A stretch of 34,853 nucleotides of DNA from a virus. Below the pieces are notes generated by a model. The model was not told the DNA's origin. It saw only the letters and a program-made list of their open reading frames with translations, and did no database searches. The translations under genes were made by a program, and so were the position numbers. The DNA lies in IMG/VR virus record IMGVR_UViG_3300017917_000832, positions 1 through 34,853 of that record; one strand, given 5' to 3'. Shown here piece after piece: positions 659 to 22,670 of the stretch; position 1 is the first letter of the stretch; each line of letters starts with the position of its first letter.

Positions 659-1407
659 TGATCTCTTCTCTCTATATCAGACTCTACACACTGATCGCCG
701 TATTGCACTTCAAGTATATGGCAGTCTTCATTGTAATTATTTTGTCCTTGATGCCATACATCTTTTTCAATAACATATGACTCGTTAGCATATTTTGTTA
801 CTTTTGTTACGCTATCGAAATAGTCAGTAACAATATCACATTTTCCTTTTAGAATATACCAGTGTTCGGCTCTCATCGCATGGCGCTGCATGCTGAGTCT
901 TTTTCCAGGTTCGATAACTAATTCTTTTACCTTATAGCCGGGCTTATCATCTAATACCCTATACCAACCCCAGGGCCGTTCTGTTTTAGGTGATTTCCAT
1001 TCTTCGAGAATCCAACTGCTTGAATTTGCTTTATTTGAGCCGCCAACTCCAAAAATAAATTCAACATCATCGAACACCATTTCGGGAACATTGTCTTTGG
1101 TTCTATCTCCGCCATTAGCAAATATGATATGATCGTCTGGGTATTTTTCTTTTACTTTTCGAATAGCATCAATAGCAGTTCCGTCACTGTCGTCAAACTC
1201 TATAACATCGCCTACCATGTGTAGATTGTCTAATACAATCATCCGTTCTCGCCATGTCATAAACGGTCTACCTTTTTTGCGTGTAAGCCAAGCATCTGAG
1301 TTTAAACCTACAACAACATGATCACCTAAATGATCAGCGTGATTAAGATAAGAAATATGACCGGAGTGTATAGGGTCAAAGCCGCCTGTAACTAGAACTA
1401 TTTTCAT
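655..1407 (-). CDS. Nucleotidyltransferase-cupin fusion (HldE2/RfaE2-like + PMI-type cupin)
   Basis: This 250-residue protein has two domains. Residues 1-135 are a cytidylyltransferase-like domain of the RfaE2/TagD type with the HxGH motif (H14-S-G-H17 in GGFDPIHSGH) and a SNKANSSSW segment where relatives carry the STTK-type motif. Residues 140-250 are a cupin resembling the type II phosphomannose isomerase domain of ManC: LSMQRHAMRAEHW carries H176 and H182, and a third candidate metal ligand is H219. The pairing suggests activation of a sugar phosphate coupled to isomerisation or epimerisation of the sugar. A perfect T4 late box lies 5 nt before the ATG and there is no Shine-Dalgarno. The downstream glycosyltransferase overlaps its stop. 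Domain calls are firm; the sugar is unknown. Confidence 0.8.
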   Translation of the reverse strand: MKIVLVTGGFDPIHSGHISYLNHADHLGDHVVVGLNSDAWLTRKKGRPFMTWRERMIVLDNLHMVGDVIEFDDSDGTAIDAIRKVKEKYPDDHIIFANGGDRTKDNVPEMVFDDVEFIFGVGGSNKANSSSWILEEWKSPKTERPWGWYRVLDDKPGYKVKELVIEPGKRLSMQRHAMRAEHWYILKGKCDIVTDYFDSVTKVTKYANESYVIEKDVWHQGQNNYNEDCHILEVQYGDQCVESDIERRDQ

Positions 1408-1412
1408 GCATA

Positions 1413-1420
1413 TATTTATA
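1413..1420 (-). promoter_or_regulatory. T4-type late promoter (TATAAATA), leaderless
   Basis: The minus strand reads TATAAATA, identical to the T4 late consensus. If the box spans -13 to -6 as in T4, transcription starts at 1407, the A of the start codon of the nucleotidyltransferase-cupin gene. Confidence 0.65.
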
Positions 1421-1434
1421 TACGCATTTAACTG

Positions 1435-2100
1435 CTATTGCTTTTCTAGAAGATAGGTAAACGTATTGAATCCAAATATAGGATCGCCAAATGCAGACAG
1501 CATTTCCTGCTGTGCTGTTGTAATATCGTTCTTTAAAAATTTAAGATTAGTTTTTAAGAAAACTCTACCGTTAGGTTCTAGAAAATTAAAAAGATTTTCT
1601 TTTAAAAATAACCAATCCTGTGCTGTATAATAGAAGGTATTTTCGTCTCCGGAATTAAATGTAGTTCTCAATCCTACTATGAGATCATATTTGTCAGGCA
1701 GCACGATTTCTGTATTTTTTTTTATTTCAAGCTCTAAAACATCTAAATTATAATGAGCATGTACTTCTGTAATCTTTGTATCTAATACTGGTTGAATTTC
1801 AGTACCGATTGCAGTATGTCCTAGACTATTACATAATTTTACAAAGTGTCCGCAGCCACAACCTAAATCAACAATTTTTAATTTTCCTTGTTTTAAGTTA
1901 AGAAAAGAAATTGCATTTAATTTATCGCCTAGTTTTTTAAAGTCTGGCGGGAAATAGCCGCCGGTTGAATAATAATTGTCTTGATTATTAGCGCACCACT
2001 GTTCTGTAAAATTGTCATACAGGACAGACTTTGCCCACTCTAAGTCACTGCTTGAGTAGAGTGCATACTGTATTCTATTTTTGTAAAGTCTTAAATCCAT
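1435..2100 (-). CDS. Class I SAM-dependent methyltransferase
   Basis: A 221-residue protein with the glycine-rich SAM motif I, IVDLGCGCGHF, at residues 76-86. The acidic post-I region (GTEIQPV) and the KYDLIVGLRTTF stretch fit a Rossmann methyltransferase. The N-terminal 70 residues are not recognised. It lies in a run of sugar-related genes, starting 10 nt inside the end of the GT25-like gene, so a glycan or sugar O- or N-methylation role is inferred from context only. The SAM fold is firm, the acceptor unknown. Confidence 0.7.
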   Translation of the reverse strand: MDLRLYKNRIQYALYSSSDLEWAKSVLYDNFTEQWCANNQDNYYSTGGYFPPDFKKLGDKLNAISFLNLKQGKLKIVDLGCGCGHFVKLCNSLGHTAIGTEIQPVLDTKITEVHAHYNLDVLELEIKKNTEIVLPDKYDLIVGLRTTFNSGDENTFYYTAQDWLFLKENLFNFLEPNGRVFLKTNLKFLKNDITTAQQEMLSAFGDPIFGFNTFTYLLEKQ

Positions 2101-2780
2101 TTCTTTTGTGTTGTACTTAACTCGTGCATTAATGATGCATTTTTATAAAAGATTTTATTGACTGACGCTACGCTTGGGTATATTGTTTGAAGGTTTACGA
2201 TATCCTTATTACACTGCATGTCAGCAGGAAAGAAACCTGTTATTGAAATACTATCAATAAGTTTTTGTGCTGCCTTAGGTTTAATAATATAAGCCTGTAG
2301 GCCCATTGCATACTCTGCACTAATTCCGTATTTTTTTCTAGACTCAGGACTGCTGTATTCTTTTATAACAAACGGATGCCTATAATCTAATCTATGCTGT
2401 TCGCCGTAATTACCTGTAAATTTATTATAAGGATCAAGTAACAAAAATTCATCAAACATTTCTTCAATATTAGGAGGCAACGGTCTTAGCATCATGCCGT
2501 CATGCTCAAACACTACTATTGATTCATTTGTCTTAAGCGATCGAATCCACAGAGAGTAATGAGAAAGGAAGCAGCCTTTAACGCCTAGTCTGTCTTTTTT
2601 CATCTTTGCAGAAAATGGTTTTACATTTAAATCCTGCATTGCTTGCTGAATAGAATCTAGGCCATAAACACCGTCAAATTTTTCAATCGTTAAACCGTGT
2701 TCATGTCCGCTAGCAATGCAATCGTCTGCTAAACGTTCGCTTTCTTCTACACCGTTTAATCTAATTACAAATGCTTTCAT
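2091..2780 (-). CDS. Glycosyltransferase family 25-like (LPS type)
   Basis: A 229-residue protein starting at the ATG at 2780, which overlaps the TGA of the upstream GT2 gene (ATGA). A longer TTG start at 2789 is possible but less likely. The family 25 signature is seen in GVKGCFLSHYSLW (residues 66-78), followed by VVFEHDG where family members usually have an EDD-type acidic motif. Here the middle residue is His (E92-H93-D94), so metal binding may differ. GT25 enzymes commonly add galactose or glucose to lipooligosaccharide. It is part of the overlapping sugar-modification operon. Confidence 0.7.
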   Translation of the reverse strand: MKAFVIRLNGVEESERLADDCIASGHEHGLTIEKFDGVYGLDSIQQAMQDLNVKPFSAKMKKDRLGVKGCFLSHYSLWIRSLKTNESIVVFEHDGMMLRPLPPNIEEMFDEFLLLDPYNKFTGNYGEQHRLDYRHPFVIKEYSSPESRKKYGISAEYAMGLQAYIIKPKAAQKLIDSISITGFFPADMQCNKDIVNLQTIYPSVASVNKIFYKNASLMHELSTTQKKWI

Positions 2781-3475
2781 AATTGCCAAGGCAATGGTAT
2801 ATGCCTCTTTCCTCCTATATGCCTAACATATCCTTCTTCATTGCTAGTTATGGCACCTCTGTATCCCTGCTCTTGATAATAGATACTCATATCCATTTCT
2901 CCCATTACTGATAGTCCGTTTTTAATAATTTTAACTTCTAAACTATCATATGGGTGAAATTTCATACAGTCGCTAGTTCTTCTTAATCCGGGATTAAATG
3001 TAAATCCGCACCATACCTTTTTATGATATTGATTCATTAGGTAATAGTAATCACCGTTTGGCAATTCAAATCGTTCATCTTTCATGATAGCATGATTTTT
3101 AGTGTCGTGATGTCCGCGGAGCCATACTGTAAAAATTTTAGGATCTGCTTCTAATATTTCAAAACTTTTTTCAATAAACCCAGACTTATAAAATTCCCAA
3201 TCTTCTTCGCAGTGAAAAATATAGTCAGTGTCTACCTTAGCGTATGCTAGGTCTATCGATTTGATCTGACCTAAATTGACCGCATTTTCGATTATGTCTA
3301 ATTCACAAGGTACTAAGGATCTAACTTTTGAAAAGTCCTGAGGTATACCACTATCTTCAGTGATGATAACTCTTTTAATGGGATAGGTATTGACCTTAAA
3401 AAATGATTCTAAGGTTCTTTCTAAAAGATCTGTTCTTCCGCAGGAAGTTATTACTACAGTAACGTCTTTGGTCAT
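2777..3475 (-). CDS. Glycosyltransferase family 2-like (GT-A fold)
   Basis: A 232-residue protein with a GT2-like N-terminus (VTVVITSCGRTDLLERTLES) and nucleotide-binding acidic residues in RVIITEDSG near 35-43. The acidic DxD-like cluster is DYIFHCEEDWEF at residues 84-95. A single soluble domain with no membrane segment visible, so it probably acts at the cytoplasmic face on an activated sugar. It overlaps its neighbours by 4 nt on both sides (ATGA), arguing for one polycistronic unit. Donor and acceptor are unknown. Confidence 0.75.
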   Translation of the reverse strand: MTKDVTVVITSCGRTDLLERTLESFFKVNTYPIKRVIITEDSGIPQDFSKVRSLVPCELDIIENAVNLGQIKSIDLAYAKVDTDYIFHCEEDWEFYKSGFIEKSFEILEADPKIFTVWLRGHHDTKNHAIMKDERFELPNGDYYYLMNQYHKKVWCGFTFNPGLRRTSDCMKFHPYDSLEVKIIKNGLSVMGEMDMSIYYQEQGYRGAITSNEEGYVRHIGGKRHIPLPWQL

Positions 3476-4783: not shown

Positions 4784-4796
4784 GTTTTCTCTTTAT

Positions 4797-6575: not shown

Positions 6576-6602
6576 TGTAATCTCCTAGTTGAAAGTCAGA
6601 AA

Positions 6603-6623: not shown

Positions 6624-6633
6624 CTATAAGGTA

Positions 6634-7737: not shown

Positions 7738-7771
7738 TGAACTAGCGAATTATCTTAAACCCGCTAGTTCA
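7738..7771 (-). terminator. Terminator overlapping the 3' end of the 596-aa gene
   Basis: TGAACTAGCG (7738-7747) pairs perfectly with CGCTAGTTCA (7762-7771) over a 14-nt loop that holds the stop codon of the minus-strand gene. The stem encodes the last residues (RELAGLR). On the minus strand it is followed by T-rich TTCATTATTTTG. Confidence 0.65.
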
Positions 7772-9540
7772 CGCATACGTTCAAACTCAGAATCCACTTC
7801 CATCTGTTGTGGTTGTGTTCTCATCTGGAATTGTTCAAAAGTTTGATTAACTCTTTCGATAAAGGCCTTTGCGGGTTCTATGAACTGCTCGCCGTAGTCC
7901 TTTTCAACCATGGTTAGAACTGCTGTTTCGCCTTTTGGAAACTGACCTGTTTCTTTGTCATAGTGAGACAGAATAAATTCGCCTATTGGTGTCTTTTGTT
8001 CTTTTACATCATCTTCTGGGTCTTTGCCCATGGCCTTTTTAATTGCAATATCTTTGGCCTTCATGTAATCATCTGAATCAACATCGCCGTCTTTGTCTAG
8101 GTCTTTGCCTTTTTCTTCATGCGTGTCAGCATCGCTGTTACCATAATCAGCTTCAATTTGATCCATCATACGACTGTGTATTTCTTCAAAGTCATCATCT
8201 GGATGTAGGCCCTGTTCTGCAGAAATTTCATTGTACATGTCCTGTAGAATTTTCTCTGCTTCTTTACCAAGTTTACCGTTTAATCCATCTTCAATCATAT
8301 CAAAGCCATCGTCGCCAGCTGCTGCGATTTTTCCTAGAATGTCTTCACCTTCGGAGCTAAATCCTTCAGCAAACTGACCCATTAGTCTTTCAATGCCTTG
8401 TTCTAATTCAATTTCTTCTGGTACGCAGTTAGGTACTTCTTTGCCGCCTTTTTTCTTGTGGCCGACCATCTTGTAACCCTTCCAACAAGGATCATCTGCG
8501 CCGCCTTTCATCTTGCCAGCTTCGTCAACTAGCTCGTCAGGGCCTAGAGTTTTTGCTTTTGTTACTTCGCTTACTAGTCTATAGATATATGGAAATACAT
8601 CTTTTAATTCTTCGTTAAACTGTCTAATAGTTAATTGGTCAATCCAGTTTTCTGCAATGTCATCTGGTACTTCGACGCTTGTTGGTGCTTCAAATGATTC
8701 AAATGTTTCTGTATAGTATGCTTTGCGTTGTAAGCCTTCTATTGTCTTTTTAACTGTTGTGATTCTTTCATGCACAGCATCCATATAGCCTGCTAGGCTT
8801 TCTGCCATTACAGCAGATCGTCCCATGTAATTTTTAAATTTACGTAGTTTGCTTAATTCTTCTGATAGGCTTACAATATATTTGCCGAAATCATCAAATG
8901 GTTTGCCGCCTTCGCTTACATGACGAGCCATTGCTCTAGCACCGCTGATGTGCTTGAAAGGATACTTAAAGCGTTCACCTTCTGCACTTTCAATATAGAT
9001 AGTGCCAACATTTTGTGTACGTCCTGCTGCTAGTTCGTGATTGACATTCTCTGTATGCTTGATTACTAATCTTGCATTATCAATGTTTTGATAGCTAACA
9101 CGGCTTGTACCATATAATTTTGACTCAGTCATAGTTCCTTCTCCGGGGCGATTCGCGGCTAAAAATTTGTAGTCTCTTTTATCTAAATTTGACTTATTAA
9201 TATCTCTAATATCAAAGTTTAATCTACGCTTCTTACCAAAGACTCTTAATTCTTTAAGGAAATTAAACCAACTGGTCTGCGTTATTTGATCTTCGTTTGA
9301 TATAAAATCTTTAGAATAAATTACTGTTAATGATTTCTTTTCTGGATTTGAAGGATCTTCGCTTATGTTTACACTTACTTTGCCCAGCGGACGATCGTTG
9401 TCTGTGTATTCAAAATCAAAAAAACGGGCTGCTGTAGGAATGTCTGTTACATTACCCTCAGCATCTCCTATGGTTACGTCAGAAAAACGTCCCCTAATTT
9501 TATTGAAAAGATCTTCAGCAATTTTGTCTAAATTCTGCAT
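7750..9540 (-). CDS. Conserved marine T4-like protein, virion-associated candidate
   Basis: A 596-residue protein of unknown function lying directly after gp17. The N-terminal 130 residues look globular (FFDFEYTDNDRPLGKVSVNI), residues about 220-330 are helical, and the C-terminal third is very acidic. Near residue 345 is a Cys-containing segment with DPCWKGYKMVG and EVPNCVPEE, which recurs in marine phage virion-region proteins. Near 476-488 DLDKDGDVDSDD matches a calcium EF-hand loop (D at 1, 3, 5, 9 and 12, G at 6). A late box 4 nt before the ATG predicts a near-leaderless mRNA. A head or scaffold role is inferred from position only. Confidence 0.6.
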   Translation of the reverse strand: MQNLDKIAEDLFNKIRGRFSDVTIGDAEGNVTDIPTAARFFDFEYTDNDRPLGKVSVNISEDPSNPEKKSLTVIYSKDFISNEDQITQTSWFNFLKELRVFGKKRRLNFDIRDINKSNLDKRDYKFLAANRPGEGTMTESKLYGTSRVSYQNIDNARLVIKHTENVNHELAAGRTQNVGTIYIESAEGERFKYPFKHISGARAMARHVSEGGKPFDDFGKYIVSLSEELSKLRKFKNYMGRSAVMAESLAGYMDAVHERITTVKKTIEGLQRKAYYTETFESFEAPTSVEVPDDIAENWIDQLTIRQFNEELKDVFPYIYRLVSEVTKAKTLGPDELVDEAGKMKGGADDPCWKGYKMVGHKKKGGKEVPNCVPEEIELEQGIERLMGQFAEGFSSEGEDILGKIAAAGDDGFDMIEDGLNGKLGKEAEKILQDMYNEISAEQGLHPDDDFEEIHSRMMDQIEADYGNSDADTHEEKGKDLDKDGDVDSDDYMKAKDIAIKKAMGKDPEDDVKEQKTPIGEFILSHYDKETGQFPKGETAVLTMVEKDYGEQFIEPAKAFIERVNQTFEQFQMRTQPQQMEVDSEFERMRELAGLR

Positions 9541-9544: not shown

Positions 9545-9552
9545 TATTTATG
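9545..9552 (-). promoter_or_regulatory. Late promoter box CATAAATA, near-leaderless
   Basis: CATAAATA on the minus strand ends 4 nt before the ATG at 9540 and overlaps the last bases upstream of the gp17 stop. No Shine-Dalgarno fits between box and start. Confidence 0.5.
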
Positions 9553-11133
9553 TCAATAGTTAGTACTTACGAAGATTGGCATAGGTGCTACATAATCAAG
9601 ATCTGAATCAGCTTGATTAAAGGTATTATAAATTCTAGGATCCCAATCTTTTAGCACATCCATCATTCTAATAGCTAGTAGAACAGCGGATATTAAATCG
9701 TCTGTGGCGCCTAGCTTTGCTTGATATGTAGAGCCCGCAGCAACGAATGTTTTCAGTTCACTGATCAAGGGCTTACTATTAACAGCCATCTTATCGTTTT
9801 CTACCATAGTTTTTAAACGACTACAAGCTGTGATTTTTGCAGCATGTGTGGTGTTAAATCCTTTACGGAATTTGCGCACATGTCCTTTGCGTATAGGTTC
9901 GGACACAAATAGTCCTGGTATATTGTCCTCTCCGAAGTCGTTGATAACAATGAGCGCGGCTTCACCTATTCCGTTGTTTTCTACACTCCAATAAACGCTG
10001 TTAGGTGATTTAGTTTCTTCTACAATATAAGAACAGATATCTTTTAGCACCCTTATCTGTCCAGGTATAGCTGTATTATTATGTTGCCATTCAGCTACTT
10101 GTTCATATGTTGGTAATTCTATTACCTGTATAGCAGCATAGTTGCCGCCAGTACCCATTGAAGGATCAAGTGCGACAGCATAGGTATATTGACCGGAAGG
10201 CTTTTTATACCAACGTGTTTGCCCCATATTGATAATAGGAGTCTTGCCCTCCATACCGGCTAGTTTAATACTGTTGATTAGTGTTTCGTCAAATACTAGG
10301 AATTCGCAACCATACTCACGGCGGAATCGCTCTTCACCAATGCGGCCAATTTCTTCGTCACGCCACTTATCATCTCTGTCTGGGTGTTCGCTCCAGTGTG
10401 CTGTAAATGAAAAGAATCCGTTAATGCCTAACTCTTGCTCATTACCGTGTTCGTCAAATTTCTTTTCAGCATCTTTCCAAATCTGCGCAAAAGTATCTTC
10501 GTCTGAGTTAGGTGTTGAAGTAATAATAGCCCTACCACCAGTTGCTAGTGTAGGAGAAATTGAAGTCCAAAATTCTTCTGCGATGTTAGGTGCTACGAAT
10601 GCAAACTCGTCACAGTATAGTAATGAGATAGACATACCACGACCTGTGTTGCCTGTAGTAGTAGCACTAACTATGCGACTGCCATTTTCAAATTCAATTG
10701 AGCCTTTGTTATAGTTAACGACACCTGCTCTAATATGATCAGGGCAACATTCATACACATAACGAATACGCTGCATAATTTCCTGCGCACCTGTGTACTT
10801 GTGTGCTGCGATAAGAATCGTTTGGTCGGGATGAAACATAGCATACCACACTAGATAGATTGCAGCACAGGTTGTTTTACCTGTCTGACGAGGTAGCATG
10901 TTTATGTTGAAGCGGAAATTATGATAGCTTTCTAACAATCGTTCTTGATAGTCAAAAGGCTCAAATAATAGTTTACCTTTTACAGGATGTTGTATGTATG
11001 CGAAATTTTTTGCAAAGTAAAGATAGCCCCGATCTGGATCCATGCATTGTAGCAGATCCTGGATCTGTGCCTCTGTATACGTGTCTTTGGTATTAGCCTT
11101 TTTGGTTAATACGCCATCTAAACTTTTTGCCAT
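9553..11133 (-). CDS. 17: gp17 terminase large subunit
   Basis: A 526-residue packaging motor (T4 gp17: 610). Walker A is PRQTGKTT (81-88) and Walker B with catalytic Glu is LLYCDEFAF (D175, E176). The coupling-motif region is AIITSTPNS. The C-terminal RNase H-fold nuclease carries YAVALDPSMGTGG near residue 320, WSVENNGIGEA as its second acidic site, and GATDDLISA as the third. It translocates DNA into the prohead and cuts concatemers, working with gp16, encoded three genes upstream. It has its own leaderless-type late promoter, insulated from the upstream gene by a strong terminator. Confidence 0.95.
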   Translation of the reverse strand: MAKSLDGVLTKKANTKDTYTEAQIQDLLQCMDPDRGYLYFAKNFAYIQHPVKGKLLFEPFDYQERLLESYHNFRFNINMLPRQTGKTTCAAIYLVWYAMFHPDQTILIAAHKYTGAQEIMQRIRYVYECCPDHIRAGVVNYNKGSIEFENGSRIVSATTTGNTGRGMSISLLYCDEFAFVAPNIAEEFWTSISPTLATGGRAIITSTPNSDEDTFAQIWKDAEKKFDEHGNEQELGINGFFSFTAHWSEHPDRDDKWRDEEIGRIGEERFRREYGCEFLVFDETLINSIKLAGMEGKTPIINMGQTRWYKKPSGQYTYAVALDPSMGTGGNYAAIQVIELPTYEQVAEWQHNNTAIPGQIRVLKDICSYIVEETKSPNSVYWSVENNGIGEAALIVINDFGEDNIPGLFVSEPIRKGHVRKFRKGFNTTHAAKITACSRLKTMVENDKMAVNSKPLISELKTFVAAGSTYQAKLGATDDLISAVLLAIRMMDVLKDWDPRIYNTFNQADSDLDYVAPMPIFVSTNY

Positions 11134-11138: not shown

Positions 11139-11146
11139 TATTTACT
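11139..11146 (-). promoter_or_regulatory. Late promoter box AGTAAATA of gp17, leaderless
   Basis: AGTAAATA on the minus strand ends 5 nt before the gp17 ATG (11133). With T4 geometry the transcript starts on the A of the start codon. The box begins immediately after the U tract of the upstream terminator. Confidence 0.5.
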
Positions 11147-11151
11147 CAAAA

Positions 11152-11175
11152 AAATAGGGCCTCACGGCCCTATTT
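11152..11175 (-). terminator. Strong intrinsic terminator upstream of gp17
   Basis: AAATAGGGCC (11152-11161) pairs perfectly with GGCCCTATTT (11166-11175) over a 4-nt loop. On the minus strand it runs straight into a stretch of T residues, giving a textbook rho-independent terminator after the 243-aa gene. Confidence 0.85.
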
Positions 11176-12447: not shown

Positions 12448-12951
12448 TTATTTATCTTTGTTCATGCCTTTAAGGCGCTCAATTAAACTGTTGCGATCTG
12501 TTACTACATAACCTTCACCGTTGATAATTCCGTTAGGTGAATCATTATCTTCTTTATCCAATTTTTCTTTCTTAAGCTGTAATTCAACCATTTTGAGCTT
12601 TTTATCTAACTTAGCAACTTTAGCATCTAGGCTAGTCTTGAGCATATTACCCGCAACTTCAAACACGCGGCCAGCATAGCGTCCTTCAACATTCATGCCT
12701 AGGTCCATTAGATCTTCGTAGGCCTGCATAGCTTTATTAGCTACTTCATTTAGCTCAGTATCTGCTAGTTCACCTAGCCCCTTTACCTGCGGTAGCGCAG
12801 CAGAAATCTTGTCAAATTCTGCTATATCACGAAACGTTTTTTCTTGTTCTTCTATTTCGTAGCGTTTTTGCTCTTTTTCTTGCTTCTCAGCTTTTTTAAT
12901 AATCTCTTTGCTGTCTGGCAAGTTGAGCAAATCTTCTAATTTTTTAGTCAT
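12448..12951 (-). CDS. 16: gp16-like terminase small subunit
   Basis: A 167-residue, highly helical and charged protein (T4 gp16: 164). The core AYEDLMDLGMNVEGRYAGRV, followed by FEVAGNMLKTSLDAK and LDKKLKMVELQLKKEK, fits the gp16 coiled-coil oligomerisation region as I know it from cyanophage homologues. It recognises phage DNA and stimulates gp17 ATPase. It is three genes upstream of gp17, between gp4 and a conserved protein. Its own late box overlaps the stop of gp4. Assignment is by pattern memory, not alignment. Confidence 0.7.
   Translation of the reverse strand: MTKKLEDLLNLPDSKEIIKKAEKQEKEQKRYEIEEQEKTFRDIAEFDKISAALPQVKGLGELADTELNEVANKAMQAYEDLMDLGMNVEGRYAGRVFEVAGNMLKTSLDAKVAKLDKKLKMVELQLKKEKLDKEDNDSPNGIINGEGYVVTDRNSLIERLKGMNKDK
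12449..12456 (-). promoter_or_regulatory. Late promoter box GATAAATA
   Basis: GATAAATA on the minus strand overlaps the gp16 stop codon, 27 nt before the ATG at 12421. It gives a short leader of about 22 nt with AGGAT. Confidence 0.55.
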
Positions 12952-12977: not shown

Positions 12978-12985
12978 TATTTATC
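12978..12985 (-). promoter_or_regulatory. Late promoter box GATAAATA of gp16
   Basis: GATAAATA on the minus strand overlaps the gp4 stop codon and lies 26 nt before the gp16 ATG. A weak GGAAAG sits between. Confidence 0.55.
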
Positions 12986-13794: not shown

Positions 13795-15084
13795 TTATCC
13801 TTGATTTTTTGCAATAGCATCTGAAGCTATTTGTGCTATTTTTCTATCCCCAGATGCTGCTCTATTAATTATATCGTTCTCAATAGCAGTCTGTTGTTCT
13901 TTGGGTAGAGTTTTAAATGTTCCAAAATTTCTACTGTTCCAATTAGGGCCATAAGCACCTGTTGCTAATGTTTTAGTTACTGTAGCATCTAGTGCTTTTC
14001 TATTAGATGTTAAACCTGATCGTATTCCGTCACTGTTAATAGTTTTACTTTGAGAGATAGTTAACGGTCTTGGTGCGCCACCTGTATCTCTCTGAGTAGC
14101 TCCTCTTGATGAAGGGAATATAATTTGCCCTAGTCTATTCAGCTGTCTGCCTTCTCTGCTAGTGTTTAGAATAGAAGTAAGTATTCCGCGAGGATCTTTT
14201 CTTCCTGTTGCTAAATTTCTAAATATAGAACCAATAGTATTAAGTCCAGTATTATCATACTTGTCAAATTGAGGAATTACTACTGGTTCTATTTGTCTAC
14301 CAACTCCGGCAATTTCAACACCACTAAATGCCTCTTGTGTATTCAATGGACTGTGTACTTGGTCGTATCTTGTTTCGATATCAGTAAATCCTACAGGCTC
14401 GTTACCACCGCGTATTTCACCGGTGTTATACAGTACACCTTCGTAACCCACAGTCATACTATTTTCCATAATACCTTGTCCGTCACTGTATTCCATATCG
14501 TCGTGACCCCAGGCTGTTAGAATAGGATTAATTAAAGTATAACTAAACCATTTATGTCTTGACAATTGATATATTCTAATATGGGAGAAGAAAGGTCCAT
14601 TTGTACCATTGTCTAAACCGTATCTAGGAACTTGATTAGTAAATTTATCTCTAGCACCAAAATCTAAAGGACGACCTCTATCATTCTTGTGACCATCCTT
14701 TGAATAATATTTGTAGTATTCTTCGAGCATAGCTCTAGTAAGACCGGTATTATCATCATGCAGTTTAATACTGATGTCATCATAGTCTATCTTTGTTTGA
14801 ACACGCTTTTTTCTATTATATTGATTTTTAGTTTCAACTGTTGCTCTAAACTTTGGAAGTTCTACGCTTTTAACTAATACTCCTAGTTCTTTTCTATATG
14901 CACTACTGTTAGCAATTTTATCTAAAGGCGCTGAATACTCAAAAACTACGTGATATAAGAATTTAGTTTTAGGCCCTAGAGCATGGCCGTGTTCAGTGAA
15001 CAACTGAAGAGCGTGTCGTGCATCGCGTAGATGCAGTTCACTATCAGTGTTAATTAAATAGAGGTCTTGAGTATTAATTCCCAT
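13795..15084 (-). CDS. Tail-tube-fold protein, baseplate/tube cap candidate (gp48/gp54-like)
   Basis: A 429-residue protein next to gp19. The first 170 residues resemble an elaborated tail-tube domain: KTKFLYHVVFEYSA, then LVKSVELPKFRATVETKNQ, then IDYDDISIKLHDDNTGLTRA. This strand order matches gp19 tube subunits. The remaining 250 residues are Gly/Asn/Thr-rich and end in a helix. T4 gp48 and gp54 sit on the baseplate and start the tube, and both carry tube-like domains; this protein could fill one such role. Its late promoter is leaderless-type and a terminator separates it from gp19. Confidence 0.55.
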   Translation of the reverse strand: MGINTQDLYLINTDSELHLRDARHALQLFTEHGHALGPKTKFLYHVVFEYSAPLDKIANSSAYRKELGVLVKSVELPKFRATVETKNQYNRKKRVQTKIDYDDISIKLHDDNTGLTRAMLEEYYKYYSKDGHKNDRGRPLDFGARDKFTNQVPRYGLDNGTNGPFFSHIRIYQLSRHKWFSYTLINPILTAWGHDDMEYSDGQGIMENSMTVGYEGVLYNTGEIRGGNEPVGFTDIETRYDQVHSPLNTQEAFSGVEIAGVGRQIEPVVIPQFDKYDNTGLNTIGSIFRNLATGRKDPRGILTSILNTSREGRQLNRLGQIIFPSSRGATQRDTGGAPRPLTISQSKTINSDGIRSGLTSNRKALDATVTKTLATGAYGPNWNSRNFGTFKTLPKEQQTAIENDIINRAASGDRKIAQIASDAIAKNQG

Positions 15085-15089: not shown

Positions 15090-15097
15090 TATTTATC
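15090..15097 (-). promoter_or_regulatory. Late promoter box GATAAATA, leaderless
   Basis: GATAAATA on the minus strand ends 5 nt before the ATG at 15084, placing the start point on the A of the initiation codon. Confidence 0.6.
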
Positions 15098-15878: not shown

Positions 15879-15886
15879 TATTTATC
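15879..15886 (-). promoter_or_regulatory. Late promoter box GATAAATA of gp19
   Basis: GATAAATA on the minus strand lies 23 nt before the gp19 ATG, with AGGAGA between, so this late mRNA has a normal leader. Confidence 0.65.
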
Positions 15887-15892
15887 TATAAT

Positions 15893-15914: not shown

Positions 15915-15921
15915 TTTTATA

Positions 15922-18900
15922 TTAGCCTAGTGCTGCAATTTCACCTGTGTTCTTAATTCTCAATGGAATGTAAATGAACTCAACTGCCTTGACTGGTTCG
16001 ATAGCTATATCTAGATATAGTTCGTTACGGTCAATTCTACTTGGTGTATTGTTAGACTCATCGCAAACTACTAGATAGTCATACAATGCACGTAAGCTCA
16101 CAAGTTCTAGGCAGAATGCATCAGCTGCTGCTTTGATCTGATCACGTGTGATCTTGTCGTTTGGTTCAAACAAGTATGGTCTTGCTAGTTTTTCTAGCTG
16201 GCCACGCATGTAAACAATTAGACGTGCTACGTTTACACGGTCTAGAGCACTTGCATTTCTTGCACGAGTCTTCTGACCAAACACAACTAATCCTGCACCA
16301 CTTAGGAAAGTGATTGGGTTAATTGCATTGCTGTATAGTGTATCACGCTGTCCTGTGTTTAGTGCGATTGAAACAAATTCGCCTTCTGAGCTGATGTAGC
16401 CTGAAGCTGTTGCATTTGTAACACCGCCACGACGTGTACCTGCTGGAGCAAACCAGGGGAACGCTACTTGGTCATTTAGAATGATTGTACGCAATGCCAT
16501 ATGGCTTGGCGGAACAACTACGTTATTACCAAAGTTGTCACTTGTAAAGCCCCATGGATAGTACATAGCCATGTATTCGTCGAAGCTTACTGCACCGTCA
16601 TCGTTATCTTCAACAGCACGACGAACATTTGAACCCCACTCATTTAGTGATGTAGCATCTGGTGTTAGTCTTGCTGGTGTATCACCAACTACAAACGCTG
16701 TTAGTCTGCGATCGTAGTTTAGTGTAATCATCTCACCAATCAGCTCTGGATAGCCAGGGCAAGCAATTAGATTGAAGTAGCGTGATTCTTCATCACGGAT
16801 ATCTTGATTGCTGTTTACTAGAGCCTGTAGTGACTGTACAACGCTCTTGCGCTGTGCATGACGGCCAAATGTACCTGAACCATCTTCGTTGTTTCCTGAA
16901 TCAGTTACCCAACGATGTGGATAGTATGTTTCCATAACTTGATCTAAATAACGTGAGTTTGTGCCCTGTACGTCAATATAGTTACGTGCAAAACGCTTCA
17001 CGTTAAATCCTGAACGACGTAGATTCCATAGCAGCATACCCTTTGGATATAGTGCTGGATCTGGAGCGTCTGGATCTAGGAAGTTATCAGACAGTAGATC
17101 TACTATGTCGCCTGCATCATTGCTGGTCTTACCAAGGTTAGTAGTCCAACGTGCATCAGCAAAAAGTATACCGTTTTCTGTTGTTTGATCAGTCTTGTCA
17201 ACTAGTACCCATTCTTCTAGTACGTCATTGTACTTGTAGATTGTTGGGAAGTTTTCAATATCAGCTGTATCAATCCATAGATCGCCTGTTACGAGCGGAT
17301 CACCCATTGAATTTTCTGTAGGCTGTGTGGCACCAACGATTGGACCATTAGCGTCGGTATTACCTGTGCCATCACCGTGGTCATAGTTTAGGTAACCAAC
17401 CCATGTAGTACCGTTGTGGATCATGATATCAACTTCGTCGATAACAGAGCTATACCATAGTTCACCGTCCGGTGCTAGTGTTAGAGGTTCATTGTTGTCA
17501 GCTACATAGGATAGTAATCTCCATCCTGATGCTCTAAACTGTGCTGGGCTTGTTGAACCGCTTGTTCCTGGTTCATATGATAGGCCCAATGTGCCTGATG
17601 TAGAGCTAACATATGCGCCAAAGCCGGCTAATGCTAGACCACCGTCGCTGTCAACTAGTCTAATTTCGCCTCCTAGCTTGTGAGTAATTGAAACTCTCTT
17701 TAAGCCGTCAACTGTGGCAACTACGTTAACTAGACCAGCTGCATTGATAGCACCTGCTAGTACATCGGCATCGCTTGGAGCGCCTGTTGCTGTAAATTCC
17801 ACAACTACTGGTGTGTATGCATCAGTAGCAGGATTTCTTGGCCAGAACTTGTTGTTACCTGTTCTTGTTTCGCCAATTGTAAATTCATATGTACCAGCAC
17901 TAATTGTACCGCTAGCAATCTTGCCGCCTACAACAGTAGTTGGACCGTTTGCTGCGCGACGATAGATAGACCAGTTACCTTTCTTAGCTACATCTTCATT
18001 AATGTTAGCTTTTACATATAGGTCACCTAGTACTAGGTTTGCACCACCGCCTGTTCTGTTTAGCTGATAAATTGCATCTTCAGCTGACTGATAAACAGGA
18101 GCAACTACAGTTTCCCATAGTTGGGTATCACCGTTATAACGCTTAACACTGAATTTCGCGCCAGCGTTTGGTTGTGTTGTCTTTAACCATAATGAACCAG
18201 TAGGACGATTGTCTTCTAGTGTCTTAAATGTTGGAACACTGGTGTGAGGAGCAATAGCTACTGCTGGGGTATTGAAAGTACCAGCGGTTAAACCTAGCTG
18301 TGTTATTAGTGTTGTTGATCCAGCTGTGCCGGCAGCAATAACTAGTGTATTGTTATCTGAATAAATTTCAAGATAACCGTCAACATTAGCACAAGTTACG
18401 CCAGCTGCTGTCATTGCTGTATTAAAGTCTGCAACAAAATCATTTAATGTTGTACCGCTTAGTGTAACTAGAGTACCGTCAATAGTGATCGTTGAAGTAT
18501 TTGTTAATGTTGGATTAGCAGCAGTACCTGTTACTGTAGCCCAAGAAGCTTTCCATTCGTCTGTGCCTACGCCAACCCACTGTCCCTTACTTGGACCAAC
18601 AGCAGCCTTATACCATAGTTTGTTGTCTGTTGCTGTCGCATCAACTGCGTAGTCACCTACACCGCCTACTGCTGCCTTTGGTGGCTCACCTGATGTATCG
18701 TTTTCTAGGTTACCTACATCGACGATAGCAATTGGAGTTACTGAAGTAAATGCTTGTCCGCCTGCAACTGTAATTGCAGAGCCGTTCCACTCAAGTACAC
18801 CAAAAGAAGTAACTCTTGTGTCTAACCAGTAAGAACCATCTACTGGCTCACCACCCGGTGCTACTGCCTGTGCTTGTAGCTTAGAAACGTCTAGTCCTGC

Positions 18901-19233
18901 ACGACATACATACACCCTGTTGCTAACGCCTAGCAATGAATAAGCAGTATTCAAACCGTATTCATTTAGCTCGCCGCCGTGAATCATATTTCCGTTTGCA
19001 TCAGAATAGAACAGCGCATCACCAAAGGTTTCGCCAAGCTCTCTCTGACTTGTAATTAAATAAGGCTTACCAGCATTCGCTTTCAGCGTTCCTACTGCTG
19101 TGCCTGAACCACTTGCGCTGGTCTTGTTCTCAGCAGTGGCTATAAAAATCATTGGTACGGTACCTGCACCGGCCGGAGTATAAAAACTCTCGTCGATTAC
19201 ATTTACCTCTACTCCAGGTGATACTAGTGCCAT
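15922..19233 (-). CDS. 18: gp18 tail sheath protein with very large insertion
   Basis: A 1103-residue contractile sheath subunit (T4: 659). The start at 19233 is set by AGGAGA (19241-19246) and by the sheath N-terminus MALVSPGVEVNVIDESF. The C-terminal 400 residues hold the conserved core: YPHRWVTDSG, YFNLIACPGYPELI, then PWFAPAGTRRGG, LVVFGQKTRA and YLFEPNDKITRDQI. Between about residue 110 and 700 lies an insertion with six copies of a G(D/S/E)LW...W motif, probably displayed on the tail surface. It has its own late promoter and a downstream hairpin. Confidence 0.93.
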   Translation of the reverse strand: MALVSPGVEVNVIDESFYTPAGAGTVPMIFIATAENKTSASGSGTAVGTLKANAGKPYLITSQRELGETFGDALFYSDANGNMIHGGELNEYGLNTAYSLLGVSNRVYVCRAGLDVSKLQAQAVAPGGEPVDGSYWLDTRVTSFGVLEWNGSAITVAGGQAFTSVTPIAIVDVGNLENDTSGEPPKAAVGGVGDYAVDATATDNKLWYKAAVGPSKGQWVGVGTDEWKASWATVTGTAANPTLTNTSTITIDGTLVTLSGTTLNDFVADFNTAMTAAGVTCANVDGYLEIYSDNNTLVIAAGTAGSTTLITQLGLTAGTFNTPAVAIAPHTSVPTFKTLEDNRPTGSLWLKTTQPNAGAKFSVKRYNGDTQLWETVVAPVYQSAEDAIYQLNRTGGGANLVLGDLYVKANINEDVAKKGNWSIYRRAANGPTTVVGGKIASGTISAGTYEFTIGETRTGNNKFWPRNPATDAYTPVVVEFTATGAPSDADVLAGAINAAGLVNVVATVDGLKRVSITHKLGGEIRLVDSDGGLALAGFGAYVSSTSGTLGLSYEPGTSGSTSPAQFRASGWRLLSYVADNNEPLTLAPDGELWYSSVIDEVDIMIHNGTTWVGYLNYDHGDGTGNTDANGPIVGATQPTENSMGDPLVTGDLWIDTADIENFPTIYKYNDVLEEWVLVDKTDQTTENGILFADARWTTNLGKTSNDAGDIVDLLSDNFLDPDAPDPALYPKGMLLWNLRRSGFNVKRFARNYIDVQGTNSRYLDQVMETYYPHRWVTDSGNNEDGSGTFGRHAQRKSVVQSLQALVNSNQDIRDEESRYFNLIACPGYPELIGEMITLNYDRRLTAFVVGDTPARLTPDATSLNEWGSNVRRAVEDNDDGAVSFDEYMAMYYPWGFTSDNFGNNVVVPPSHMALRTIILNDQVAFPWFAPAGTRRGGVTNATASGYISSEGEFVSIALNTGQRDTLYSNAINPITFLSGAGLVVFGQKTRARNASALDRVNVARLIVYMRGQLEKLARPYLFEPNDKITRDQIKAAADAFCLELVSLRALYDYLVVCDESNNTPSRIDRNELYLDIAIEPVKAVEFIYIPLRIKNTGEIAALG
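17265..18843 (-). repeat. Six degenerate GxLW modules inside gp18
   Basis: Repeated motifs at gp18 residues about 131 (GSYWLDT), 203 (NKLWYKA), 343 (GSLWLKT), 401 (GDLYVKA), 588 (GELWYSS) and 648 (GDLWIDT). Most are followed 15-30 residues later by an aromatic-rich stretch such as YNGDTQLWETV or HNGTTWVGYL. The pattern looks like repeated small beta domains. Confidence 0.65.
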
Positions 19234-19264
19234 GTTATCTTCTCCTATTGGACTATGTTGCATG

Positions 19265-19272
19265 TATTTATT
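19265..19272 (-). promoter_or_regulatory. Late promoter box AATAAATA of gp18
   Basis: AATAAATA on the minus strand lies 31 nt before the gp18 ATG, with AGGAGA between. Confidence 0.5.
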
Positions 19273-19292
19273 ATATTCAAAGCAAAAAGGGC

Positions 19293-19298
19293 TATAAT
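19293..19298 (+). promoter_or_regulatory. Possible -10 box (TATAAT) for the HNH-like gene
   Basis: TATAAT on the plus strand, 42 nt before the ATG at 19340. No convincing -35 element is seen at 16-18 nt spacing, so support is weak. Confidence 0.25.
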
Positions 19299-19339
19299 AC
19301 AGTCCAAAAAAGGGGTGAAAAAGGTGAGGTAAATACAAT

Positions 19340-19675
19340 ATGAGACCACTATGCCTTTGCGGCCAAAGACCTGCGGCCATTAATTACAAAAAAGAAAAAA
19401 GAACTTACTATCGCAAGCTGTGCGAAGTCTGCCTACGTAGTGGCGTAGGACACGGTGTGCCTAAATGGAAGCAGAGTGGATACACAAAAAAGGATGTTTG
19501 CGAGAAGTGTGGATTCAAAAGCAAACACCCTGAACAGTTTAATGTATTTCATGTCGACGGCGACTTGAACAACTGCCGTCCAAACAATTTAAAAACTGTG
19601 TGTGCTAATTGCCAACGTATTATACAGAAAGAAGGTGTACGTTGGAAGCAAGGAGATCTGAGACCTGACTTCTAA
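19340..19675 (+). CDS. HNH-like zinc-binding protein
   Basis: A 111-residue protein with two cysteine clusters: CLCGQRPAAINY...CEVC near the N-terminus, then CEKCGF...CANC. Between the last pairs lies FHVDGDLNNC and NNLKTVCANCQ, the H...D...N...NL pattern of HNH nucleases. Such small proteins are widespread in marine T4-like phages and may be stand-alone homing-type endonucleases or structural zinc proteins. GGTGAGG (19323-19329) is the ribosome site. It is a lone plus-strand gene between gp18 and gp1, and its last 56 nt overlap the 3' end of gp1 on the other strand. Confidence 0.7.
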   Translation: MRPLCLCGQRPAAINYKKEKRTYYRKLCEVCLRSGVGHGVPKWKQSGYTKKDVCEKCGFKSKHPEQFNVFHVDGDLNNCRPNNLKTVCANCQRIIQKEGVRWKQGDLRPDF

Positions 19676-20231
19676 GGTCTTCTAAAGAACCGTCGTTGGC
19701 AATTTCTTCATTGAAACTGGTCTTACCCCAAGCCCATTCACTAGCGTGTATGCCTGAGGGCTCAATACCGCTTTCCCGATATGCCTTAAACCACTCGGGT
19801 GTTTCGCCCCTAGTAACGCACCAAACTTGTCCGCCGACTTCTTGTAGCATCTTAATTTCGTTAGGGAAACGTGTATCTGGGATTACCCAATTTGTGTAGG
19901 GGTCTGCTGTAATCTGTTGTTTAACGATACTAACCCAAATACCGTCATAAAAGCCCTGGCGCATACACTCAGTGCCAAATTCTTGCAGTACAAGTCTAGG
20001 AGTAATTAGACGGCCAGTTTCTGCACTCCAGAATTCGTCTGGTTGCTCTCGCCAAAATCTACTTTCTTCTGTGTCGCCCTCTAGTAGATGTCTTGGCCAT
20101 TTGAACAGCACTGCTACTGCATCTTTGAGAGAGTCAGCAAAGGATATTTTCTTAAAATCGTATTCTTCAACTAGTATGTCAGCAACAGTGCCTTTACCGC
20201 TGCCAATTAGTCCGCAGACACCAACAATCAT
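19620..20231 (-). CDS. 1: Deoxynucleoside monophosphate kinase (T4 gp1-like)
   Basis: A 203-residue P-loop kinase: MIVGVCGLIGSGKGTVADIL carries the nucleotide-binding loop GLIGSGKGT (7-15). SFADSLKDAVAVLF, RLVLQEFGTE and NWVIPDTRFPNE follow the dNMP kinase layout of T4-like phages. It phosphorylates dNMPs, including those recovered from host DNA, to supply phage replication. An AGGAG site (20238-20242) and a near-consensus sigma70 promoter precede it, fitting early expression. Its 3' end overlaps the convergent HNH-like gene. Confidence 0.88.
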   Translation of the reverse strand: MIVGVCGLIGSGKGTVADILVEEYDFKKISFADSLKDAVAVLFKWPRHLLEGDTEESRFWREQPDEFWSAETGRLITPRLVLQEFGTECMRQGFYDGIWVSIVKQQITADPYTNWVIPDTRFPNEIKMLQEVGGQVWCVTRGETPEWFKAYRESGIEPSGIHASEWAWGKTSFNEEIANDGSLEDLRSQVSDLLASNVHLLSV

Positions 20232-20245
20232 TGTATGCTCCTAAG

Positions 20246-20262
20246 GTATAGTTAAACTATAC
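20246..20262. promoter_or_regulatory. Operator-like palindrome over the gp1 -10 box
   Basis: GTATAGTT-A-AACTATAC is a perfect 8-bp inverted repeat with a single-base centre. It covers the -10 box and expected start point of the gp1 promoter. The 1-nt loop makes a hairpin unlikely, so a dimeric protein site is the better reading. Confidence 0.5.
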
Positions 20263-20284
20263 TACAAAAGAGCACGTTTGTCAA
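20256..20284 (-). promoter_or_regulatory. Sigma70-type early promoter of gp1
   Basis: The minus strand has a perfect TTGACA (20284-20279), exactly 17 nt, then TATAGT (20261-20256, 5 of 6). The -35 box begins 5 nt after the stop of the upstream gene. Confidence 0.8.
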
Positions 20285-20289
20285 TGCCA

Positions 20290-20700
20290 TTAAACGCCGT
20301 ATTTGTTCTTTTTCTTGGCTGCTACAGGACTTACAGTGTTTACAGCCTTGGATTCTGTGCTTTCGGAATCTGATATTTTCTTTGGGGTTACGCCCATTAA
20401 TTTACTAGCAAGACGTATGATCTCTTCTTCTTCTTGTGTAAAAGCAACCTGTGTTAGATTTTCAGCAAATTCACTTTCTTGCTCATACTGCTTTGAATCT
20501 AATTCACCATTCTTTAGAGCCATAGCTGCTGCTACAGCCATACCGTATCTGTACTGCATGTATGGATCTGTATTACGCAGTTCTTTTTGCACAAACGTTC
20601 CCGGCAATGGACCTGTAACTCTAGCCGGTAACGGTGTTGAAGTACCACCTAATTTAGGATCAGGTACTGCTTCTTCGTTTAATAATTCATGTACTTTCAT
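20290..20700 (-). CDS. Conserved small protein downstream of gp13
   Basis: A 136-residue protein 3 nt after gp13. The N-terminus is MKVHELLNEEAVPDPKLGG, followed by a Pro-rich stretch (TSTPLPARVTGPLPGT), a helical core with QYRYGMAVAAAMALKNGE and an acidic segment, ending in KKKNKYGV. Its length, helix content and tight link to gp13 suggest a virion or neck accessory, but no family is recognised. Confidence 0.6.
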   Translation of the reverse strand: MKVHELLNEEAVPDPKLGGTSTPLPARVTGPLPGTFVQKELRNTDPYMQYRYGMAVAAAMALKNGELDSKQYEQESEFAENLTQVAFTQEEEEIIRLASKLMGVTPKKISDSESTESKAVNTVSPVAAKKKNKYGV

Positions 20701-20703
20701 TTC

Positions 20704-21462
20704 TTACCCGATCACAAACGTATATCCAACGCCGCCTGCAACAGCTTGTTCTACGTCTTTTTCTAGCTTTTCTAGTTCTTGTTGAGCTTCGCTCTTTAGT
20801 GCTTCACCGTTGAGTGATCCGCCGCCCTGTGGGCCTGCAATAGTAGCAAACTTGCTACGAGCTTCACCTAGCATATACTTACAAGTAGCCAGTGTGTAGT
20901 CTTTGATCCACTGTTTGGCAAGATAATCATCTAGTAACTGTGTATCTGGTCTATAGTTATAGCACCATAACATTAGCTGTTCTTCTGCTCTCATTCTCTG
21001 CAGGAGTGTTAATTTTTTACTAGTAGCATTCCATTTAAATTCAATGAAGCTTCCGAACATACGTCCTACCAGTTCTTGGTATTGAGAAAAGAAATCATAT
21101 GTTGCTAGGCCGCCCATGTTAGAGCTTGATAATAGATAGGTGTTTGTATAGGCCAGGTTAAATGGTTCAAACAGTGTACCGCCAGAGCCCATACCGCTTC
21201 TGCTGCCTATGCTTCTACGGAAAATTTGTCTAACTTCGATAACTTCAGCTGGCAGAATATACTCGTTTTGATCAATCACTGTATCTAAGAAAACATAGCT
21301 TTCTTCAACGGAGCCGCTGCCTTTTTGACGTATTTTACCTAGGGCTCTTGCTAGTGCTGTTTCATAGTGAATAGGATCTAACTCTACATCAACCATGCCT
21401 CCGCCTAGCATAGCATGCACATAGTCAAAAATCTCTTGTTTTTGGTCTTTTAAGTCTGCCAT
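20704..21462 (-). CDS. 13: gp13 neck protein
   Basis: A 252-residue homologue of the T4-like neck protein gp13 (T4: 309). Recognised segments include DVELDPIHYETALARAL, YILPAEVIEVRQIFRRSIGS, FFSQYQELVGRMFG and then WIKDYTLATCKYMLGEAR with KFATIAGPQGGG. It joins the portal side of the head to gp14 and the tail. It reads leftwards from the divergent late promoter it shares with gp14, with a GGAG site (21471-21474). In T4, 13 and 14 are collinear; here they are divergent. Confidence 0.8.
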   Translation of the reverse strand: MADLKDQKQEIFDYVHAMLGGGMVDVELDPIHYETALARALGKIRQKGSGSVEESYVFLDTVIDQNEYILPAEVIEVRQIFRRSIGSRSGMGSGGTLFEPFNLAYTNTYLLSSSNMGGLATYDFFSQYQELVGRMFGSFIEFKWNATSKKLTLLQRMRAEEQLMLWCYNYRPDTQLLDDYLAKQWIKDYTLATCKYMLGEARSKFATIAGPQGGGSLNGEALKSEAQQELEKLEKDVEQAVAGGVGYTFVIG

Positions 21463-21480
21463 CTATAGTTCTCCGTAGTG

Positions 21481-21488
21481 TATTTATC
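21481..21488 (-). promoter_or_regulatory. Late promoter box GATAAATA of gp13
   Basis: The left arm of a perfect 10-bp palindrome reads GATAAATA on the minus strand, 18 nt before the gp13 ATG with GGAG between. Confidence 0.65.
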
Positions 21489-21493
21489 GCAGC

Positions 21494-21501
21494 GATAAAT
21501 A
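21494..21501 (+). promoter_or_regulatory. Late promoter box GATAAATA of gp14, leaderless
   Basis: The right arm of the same palindrome reads GATAAATA on the plus strand and ends 5 nt before the gp14 ATG. With T4 geometry the RNA would start on that A. Confidence 0.65.
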
Positions 21502-21506
21502 TACAC

Positions 21507-22670
21507 ATGCCAAGAATATCTCTTTTTAAACCAGAACGCGGCAATGATTACGAATTCTTAGATCGACAGATCTCAGAAATGTTCACTGTTGGCGGCACGG
21601 ACATAAACATACACAAGTATTTGGGTCCACTAAATCCCGCTGACGGTGACGCTACAGCAGATAAACCTCAGTACGATGCTGTTAAAGAAACCAACATACA
21701 GGATCTGTTATTCCTAGAAAATAGAGACAGAAAATACGATACTAGCGTGTACACTATGCGCGGTATCTATAATGTACAGGACATTGATTTTAATCTAAGC
21801 CAATTTGGCTTATTTTTGAGTAACGACACTTTATTCTTAACTATACACATCAGAGATAGTGTAAAAACATTGGGTAGAAAAATCATGGCGGGTGATGTAA
21901 TTGAACTGCCTCACCTTAAAGATGAATATGCACTGAACGACTACAGCATGGCCCTGAAGCGTTTTTATGTAGTTGAAGATATTAATAGAGCAGCTGAGGG
22001 TTTTAGCCAAACTTGGTGGCCTCACTTATACAGATTAAAACTTAAACAAATTTATGACGGGCAAGAGTACAGTGAAATACTTGACTTGCCTGCGTCTGAG
22101 GACAGTAATCAAACACTGAGAGATGTTCTTAGCACTTACGAAAAAGAAATGCAGATTAATAACGCCGTAGTTGCACAGGCGGAAGCAGATGCTCCTAAGA
22201 GCGGTTTTACTACCAGTCATTTTTACACTGTAGCCACTAATGATGATGGTACGGTTGCACTGCAAACTGCTGACGAAACAGATATTGATGCTAGTAACAT
22301 CAGCACAGGGGCTGATGAAATTACTAACAGACCAGCTAGAGAAGGTTACTCAGGTTACTTGCTCAACTACGGCGATGCTTCAACACCTAATGCTGCACCC
22401 TATGGATTTGGTATACAGTTTCCTCGCAATCCCGTTGAAGGTGATTTCTTTCTTAGAACTGATTATATGCCCAATAGAATGTTTAACTATGACGGAACAC
22501 GTTGGGTCAAATATAAAGATGATGTAAGAATGACTCTGTCTAATACACTTGATAGATACACACATAGAACTTCGTTCATCAACAATACCAACACAAACAC
22601 CATTAACGGTGAGGTAGTTCCTGAGCGTCAAGCACTTTCAAAAGCACTTAGACCCAAGGCAGATAACTAA
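21507..22670 (+). CDS. 14: gp14 neck protein with C-terminal extension
   Basis: A 387-residue neck protein (T4: 256). The N-terminal 240 residues match T4-like gp14: DTSVYTMRGIYNVQDI, MAGDVIELPHLKDEY, then FYVVEDINRAAEGFSQTWWP. The extra C-terminal 140 residues include PVEGDFFLRTDYMP and MFNYDGTRWVKYKDD near 308-335, the same GDxxLR...YDGxxWV pattern as the modules in gp18. It caps the filled head with gp13. It has no Shine-Dalgarno. Its stop overlaps the gp15 start by 1 nt (TAATG). Confidence 0.8.
   Translation: MPRISLFKPERGNDYEFLDRQISEMFTVGGTDINIHKYLGPLNPADGDATADKPQYDAVKETNIQDLLFLENRDRKYDTSVYTMRGIYNVQDIDFNLSQFGLFLSNDTLFLTIHIRDSVKTLGRKIMAGDVIELPHLKDEYALNDYSMALKRFYVVEDINRAAEGFSQTWWPHLYRLKLKQIYDGQEYSEILDLPASEDSNQTLRDVLSTYEKEMQINNAVVAQAEADAPKSGFTTSHFYTVATNDDGTVALQTADETDIDASNISTGADEITNRPAREGYSGYLLNYGDASTPNAAPYGFGIQFPRNPVEGDFFLRTDYMPNRMFNYDGTRWVKYKDDVRMTLSNTLDRYTHRTSFINNTNTNTINGEVVPERQALSKALRPKADN

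Follow-up and report, generated by a model that had tools for sequence, protein, structure and literature searches.

Late boxes adjoining start codons predict leaderless late mRNAs in a T4-superfamily virus and its giant-phage relatives

Late genes and late boxes of the window

The virus record IMGVR_UViG_3300017917_000832, analysed over its whole length of 34.9 kb (the window), carries a late region of the T4 superfamily. The genes of this region are gp17, gp18, two tail-tube genes, gp4, gp13, those of a virion protein in the gp14 position and of a gp15-like sheath stabiliser, uvsX and gp32. Our subject is the T4-type late box of these genes and its distance from the start codon. Six genes have the box 4 or 5 nucleotides (nt) before their ATG and are predicted to be transcribed as leaderless mRNAs, these being mRNAs that begin with the AUG itself; other late genes have it further upstream and are termed leadered. 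The positions are collected in Table 1.

The closest long relative of the window is a 357-kb phage genome, G001, whose gp17 is 97% identical, and the closest isolates are giant phages such as PA5oct (about 55% gp17 identity). A host assignment from metagenome-assembled genomes (MAGs) was rejected, as the matches, which are to MAGs of Neomarinimicrobiota, Euryarchaeota and Spirochaetaceae, conflict with one another and seem to be mis-binned. Two phage contigs of 335 kb and 153 kb (L361 and L362; PBPT01000016 and PBPT01000082) lie in a Neomarinimicrobiota MAG, and are probably mis-binned or co-sampled.

Every leadered box and four of the six ATG-proximal ones carry NATAAATA; the boxes of gp17 (AGTAAATA) and of the HNH-like gene (GGTAAATA) are off by one or two bases. 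In relatives the gp17 box is kept as [AG][GT]TAAATA. The initial annotation had proposed leaderless mRNAs for five of the genes. All five are present, with their boxes where it had placed them and spacers of 5, 5, 5, 5 and 4 nt, but the gp17 box reads AGTAAATA and not ATAAATA, and a sixth gene, the HNH-like one, had been overlooked. Its leadered boxes with a Shine-Dalgarno (SD) sequence, those of gp13, gp19 and gp18, are as it described. The start of gp18 is taken to be 19233 and not the 19380 of the longest open reading frame (ORF; 15922-19380, minus strand), because of the placement of the box and SD. No SD-linked alternative ATG was found downstream of the starts of the leaderless genes in the window; in the HNH-like gene an SD precedes a single GTG, at codon 39.

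It is worth adding that the window has two cytidylyltransferases, at 655-1407 (minus) and 24564-24962 (plus), and that a late box adjoins the ATG only in the first. gp13 and gp14 have back-to-back boxes that together make a near-palindrome (21480-21502), with the reverse box kept in 78 of 80 relatives.

Table 1. Late boxes, associated genes and a terminator in the window
Feature	Position	Strand	Details
Cytidylyltransferase and mannose-6-phosphate isomerase-like cupin fusion	655..1407	-	predicted leaderless; PF01467, PF01050
Late box TATAAATA	1413..1420	-	spacer TATGC (5 nt), ATG 1407; leaderless class
596-aa (amino-acid) virion structural protein	7750..9540	-	predicted leaderless; phrog_13484
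Late box CATAAATA	9545..9552	-	spacer CAAC (4 nt), ATG 9540; immediately 3' of gp17 stop codon
gp17 large terminase	9553..11133	-	predicted leaderless; phrog_36964, E-value 5e-117
Degenerate late box AGTAAATA	11139..11146	-	spacer ATAGT (5 nt), ATG 11133
Intrinsic terminator AAATAGGGCC-GTGA-GGCCCTATTT-TTTT	11148..11175	-	predicted from sequence; just upstream of gp17 box
Late box of 164-aa gene	12449..12456	-	27 nt before ATG 12421; leadered class
Late box of 167-aa gene	12978..12985	-	26 nt before ATG 12951; leadered class
429-aa tail-tube-like protein	13795..15084	-	predicted leaderless; phrog_4542
Late box GATAAATA	15090..15097	-	spacer TTTGT (5 nt), ATG 15084
Late box GATAAATA of gp19 tail tube	15879..15886	-	23 nt before ATG 15855, with SD
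Late box AATAAATA of gp18	19265..19272	-	31 nt before ATG 19233, with SD
Late box GGTAAATA	19328..19335	+	spacer CAAT (4 nt), ATG 19340
Conserved 111-aa HNH-like protein MRPLC...	19340..19675	+	predicted leaderless
Late box GATAAATA of gp13	21481..21488	-	18 nt before ATG 21462, SD GGAG; divergent from gp14
Late box GATAAATA	21494..21501	+	spacer TACAC (5 nt), ATG 21507
gp14-position neck/virion structural protein	21507..22670	+	predicted leaderless; SD and AUC/AUU start in some relatives

Box spacing and initiation signals in relatives

The comparison set combined two giant-phage genomes with three collections of loci: 81 for gp17, 80 for gp14 and 40 for the 596-aa gene. Given that the loci were gathered via gp17 and gp14, the counts by family are not independent; the tests on single genomes are, and these used crude ORF calling with one start, the first ATG, per ORF. 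The distance from box to ATG is bimodal, being either 4-5 nt or about 13-31 nt. The window has six boxes at 4-5 nt where 0.07 are expected (p = 1.7e-10, with the rate taken from 50-133 nt upstream). G001 has 22 genes with a box 4-5 nt before the first ATG (0.83 expected, p = 7e-24), 4 at 6-12 nt (2.9 expected) and 47 at 13-31 nt (7.9 expected), and the second giant genome, a 335-kb contig, also has 22 boxes at 4-5 nt (p = 1e-20). Across the 81 loci, the histogram of TAAATA-to-ATG distances has 76 cases at 4 nt, 144 at 5, 1 at 6 and 21 at 7, those at 7 being in one family. Beyond this it is low, followed by a broad second peak at 21-27 nt, and the range that would give a leader of 1-7 nt, with no room for an SD and yet not leaderless, is largely missing. 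The test set beforehand for the initial annotation was whether related genomes show a peak at 5 nt, and such a peak is strongly present across the comparison set.

These boxes might be chance matches in an A+T-rich genome, or the start codons might have been picked to suit them, and it is true that TATAAATA itself shows no over-representation, occurring once in the window where 4.2 occurrences are expected. However, it is the position of the boxes rather than their number that is non-random (p from 1e-10 to 1e-24 with the first ATG per ORF), and the N-termini of gp17, the HNH-like protein, gp14 and the cytidylyltransferase are conserved from the box-linked ATG. No such distance peak appears in the 81 loci for anagram hexamers chosen to be free of overlap with the box. 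Chance in an A+T-rich genome is rejected by these hexamers together with the positional Poisson tests, and the comparative counts already exclude it, so that this explanation is extremely improbable. Retention of the box merely as the TAA stop of the upstream gene was also rejected: this is true for some gp17 loci, yet the box persists after intrinsic terminators.

The spacing is also kept gene by gene. A box at 4-5 nt is found in 73 of 83 relatives for gp17, 43 of 48 for the 429-aa tail-tube-like gene (exactly 5 nt in 42), 16 of 18 for the cytidylyltransferase family and 23 of 25 for the HNH-like gene; for gp14 it lies at exactly 5 nt in 61 of 80, and for the 596-aa gene 4-7 nt before the ATG in all 40 relatives examined. 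The leadered arrangement is found in 43 of 45 relatives for gp19 (17-26 nt), 55 of 57 for the 164-aa gene and 53 of 56 for the 167-aa gene. Among reciprocal orthologues of G001 and the 335-kb genome, 13 are predicted leaderless on both sides (gp14, assigned by eye, brings this to 14), 26 are leadered on both sides, and few differ in mode; the leaderless orthologues are 30-77% identical. We conclude that the predicted mode, leaderless or leadered, belongs to the individual gene and is maintained even between phages that are only distantly related. A trait of the whole genome or host was rejected, as locus L081 combines an SD-led AUC gp14 with a leaderless gp17. Two side observations concern these families. 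Some boxes of the 596-aa family lie at 6-7 nt, implying a leader of 1-2 nt (L275-L278, L286, L287, L293), and in L044 (1031-3371) and L049 (2157-4487) the match to gp17 is about 2.3 kb long rather than 1.6 kb, which suggests an intron or a homing-endonuclease insertion.

The T4 late box spans -13 to -6 relative to the transcription start (PMC1524935; PMC2988020), and with a 5-nt spacer the predicted +1 therefore coincides with the first base of the AUG; the coordinate adopted in the initial annotation agrees with the former source. In leadered promoters of T4 (44%), KVP40 (53%) and PA5oct (49%), the position at which a pyrimidine-purine step occurs most often, alone or tied, is box+5/+6; in G001 it is box+4/+5 (50%). 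The base before the ATG is a pyrimidine in 24 of 27 leaderless-class genes, compared with 145 of 344 box-less genes (p = 2e-6). A divergent pair in G001, 193699-194355 (minus) and 194395-195210 (plus), has both genes predicted leaderless, with 39 bp separating the two ATGs.

SD-like motifs are found in 11% (81 loci) and 15% (G001) of the leaderless class, against 65% and 71% of leadered genes. In the 81 loci, genes with a box at 4-5 nt start with ATG in 227 cases and never with GTG or TTG; in G001 the corresponding start codons are 27 ATG and 2 GTG. Leaderless mRNAs require AUG, depend on initiation factor 2 (IF2) and are antagonised by initiation factor 3 (IF3) (PMC4611024), and the exclusive use of ATG at 4-5 nt in the 81 loci matches this requirement. 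Intrinsic terminators lie at most 80 nt upstream of 72 of 226 leaderless genes, 0 of 183 leadered genes and 2 of 510 box-less genes. They precede mainly gp17 (46 of 82 relatives) and the tail-tube-like gene, and would insulate leaderless genes from read-through. Folding of the 5' ends indicates that structure is weak at leaderless starts, but not weaker than at leadered ones. The two translation classes of late genes proposed in the initial annotation are thus backed by SD frequency, ATG-only use, the gap at 6-12 nt and conservation gene by gene.

Similar spacings occur in some other phages. The Pelagibacter phage HTVC008M (NC_020484) has 11 boxes at 4-5 nt (0.64 expected), including those of gp25-, gp4- and gp2-like genes, and Mosig (MT647606), a second cultured T4-like Pelagibacter phage, has 6 genes with a box at this distance (p = 5e-5). 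P-SSM2 is mainly leadered, with 47 boxes at 13-31 nt and 4 at 4-5 nt (0.62 expected). PA5oct has 2 boxes at 4-5 nt (1.45 expected) and is not of the leaderless class. There is no excess at 4-5 nt in Syn9 or S-PM2, and in T4 and KVP40 no box lies 4-7 nt before any ATG, most being 12-35 nt away.

Two forms of gp14

Between about one fifth and one quarter of the gp14 relatives have the box 21-28 nt upstream of the codon that aligns with Met1, the box being followed by AGGAG and a start at AUC or AUU (L190, L192, L198, L199, L202, L211 and others). In this form GGAG lies exactly 7 nt upstream of the AUC or AUU in 22 of 22 cases. The base at box+6, where transcription is predicted to begin, is an A in 20 of 21, and leaders of 16-23 nt would result. 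Conservation of the protein starts at this codon (IPRLSLYKPERGNDY). Most of these genes offer no in-frame ATG, GTG or TTG within the predicted transcript; in variants that read ATGGTTATC or ATGATTATC an ATG does occur two codons upstream, but at a distance of only 1 nt from GGAG. The gp14 tree requires at least three exchanges between the two forms on well-supported branches, and five to six under parsimony. The SD form is never found with AUG in the sample of close relatives, and the isolates PA5oct, Phosso and Atu_ph07 have gp14 with an SD and ATG. Non-AUG starts as a general habit of these phages were rejected: because none is seen in the other families of the 81 loci, the AUC/AUU start is specific to gp14.

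IF3 discriminates against AUU and AUC as well as against leaderless starts (PMC4611024). We suggest, with considerable doubt, that gp14 may be held to an IF3-sensitive mode of initiation. The gene is in effect a natural experiment, in which the alternation with AUC/AUU points to IF3 as the shared constraint.

Proposed mechanism and relation to known systems

We propose that host RNA polymerase carrying the phage gp55-type sigma would read the ATG-proximal boxes as late promoters, and that transcription would begin 5-6 nt after the box, at the A of the start codon, to give a 5'-AUG mRNA that would be translated without an SD, probably via 70S/IF2-type initiation. In a second set of late genes this box stands 13-31 nt upstream and the mRNA would carry an SD in a leader of some 10-26 nt, box placement alone setting the translation mode. 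It is very probable that the ATG-proximal boxes are real late promoters giving leaderless mRNAs from the AUG, the 5' end and the translation route being deduced from sequence. The sequence comparisons show the fixed spacing, the bimodality, the gene-wise conservation, the SD split, the ATG-only use, the predicted upstream terminators and the presence of gp55. A gp55-family sigma is encoded by G001, G002 and G004 (E-values 1e-78 to 1e-80) and by the isolates examined for it; gp55 was not found in G003, nor in the window, which is a fragment.

Several points weigh against this proposal. gp33 (phrog_254), a small divergent protein, was not detected in the giant relatives, and the factor set may differ from that of T4. 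Two GTG codons lie 4 nt from a box in G001, and the low SD rate is partly forced, because the box occupies the position of the SD. Spacers of 4 nt, and of 7 in one family, require flexibility of one to a few nt in the start site. Read-through from upstream genes could yield leadered copies where there is no terminator, as for most genes other than gp17.

Instead of being a promoter, the ATG-proximal TAAATA could be a translational element, for instance an A/U-rich site for the ribosome or S1, within a longer mRNA transcribed from further upstream. A/U-rich stretches can help initiation without an SD, which would favour this, and many genes with an ATG-proximal box are in tandem with the gene upstream. 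Against it, the octamer is that of the leadered promoters and of the T4 box; a terminator separates the upstream gene from the gp17 box in over half of the relatives; divergent genes such as gp13/gp14 leave no space for an upstream promoter; and the gp14 box shifts upstream exactly when the SD leader appears. We therefore consider it very unlikely. A start a few nt upstream of the AUG or inside it, leaving a leader of 1-3 nt or a truncated AUG, would make the mRNAs near-leaderless and not strictly leaderless. Start-site selection can wobble, and spacers do vary between 4, 5 and, in one family, 6-7 nt, but among 62 leaderless or near-leaderless cases of gp14 the spacer measures exactly 5 in 61, and a pyrimidine directly precedes the A in most genes. 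This is unlikely too, though less so than the translational element.

Returning to initiation at the AUG itself, a tentative extension is that the leaderless late genes might form a translation regulon, tuned late in infection by initiation factors or a modified ribosome, with gp14 as the best case. Phage-encoded bS21 may help to switch ribosomes. It is encoded by G001 (332212-332364, minus), G003, the 335-kb contig (G005:C57), HTVC008M, Mosig, PA5oct, Atu_ph07 and Phosso, and is present in every near-complete genome searched that has a significant leaderless class; it is absent from T4, KVP40, P-SSM2, Syn9, S-PM2, 121Q and phiM12. As a marker of leaderless genes it is suggestive only, PA5oct, Atu_ph07 and Phosso carrying it with little or no leaderless class. 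The bS21 gene of the 335-kb contig is not itself leaderless (it has an SD and TTG), and no phage-encoded IF3 was found.

T4 late transcription is a textbook case of leadered, SD-containing mRNAs, and here the same type of promoter would set the translation mode by the position of its box, with each late gene keeping its own mode across large divergence. Why such mRNAs are leaderless, and what translates them, can be tested in natural paired genes, including those of cultured Pelagibacter phages. Annotation pipelines should beware that late-gene starts of this kind are easily missed or misplaced, as with the AUC/AUU of gp14. We found no earlier report of leaderless T4-type late mRNAs in the open-access literature.

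The late promoters of T4 (TATAAATA, gp55/gp33/gp45) share with those described here the box, the gene class, a gp55-family sigma and the pyrimidine-purine step; they differ in that ATG-proximal boxes occur here, that gp33 is undetected in the giant relatives, and that the base upstream of the box is G/N rather than T. AUU-type starts are known from infC and pcnB. The gp14 variant resembles these in being SD-led with a non-canonical AUU/AUC, a codon class rejected by IF3 (PMC4611024), and differs in being a phage structural gene that alternates in evolution with a leaderless AUG. The same box is shared with the cyanophages (Kyanoviridae), where NATAAATA late promoters have been reported upstream of late genes (PMC2984593). 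A parallel in translation comes from Thermus phages. P23-45 has leaderless middle and late mRNAs. In phiYS40 a temporal class of phage genes is likewise made as leaderless mRNA, with IF2 reported up and IF3 down (PMC3594737). The present case, predicted from sequence, differs from phiYS40 in phage lineage, promoter type and host, and would involve part of the late genes, gene by gene, through a T4-type box.

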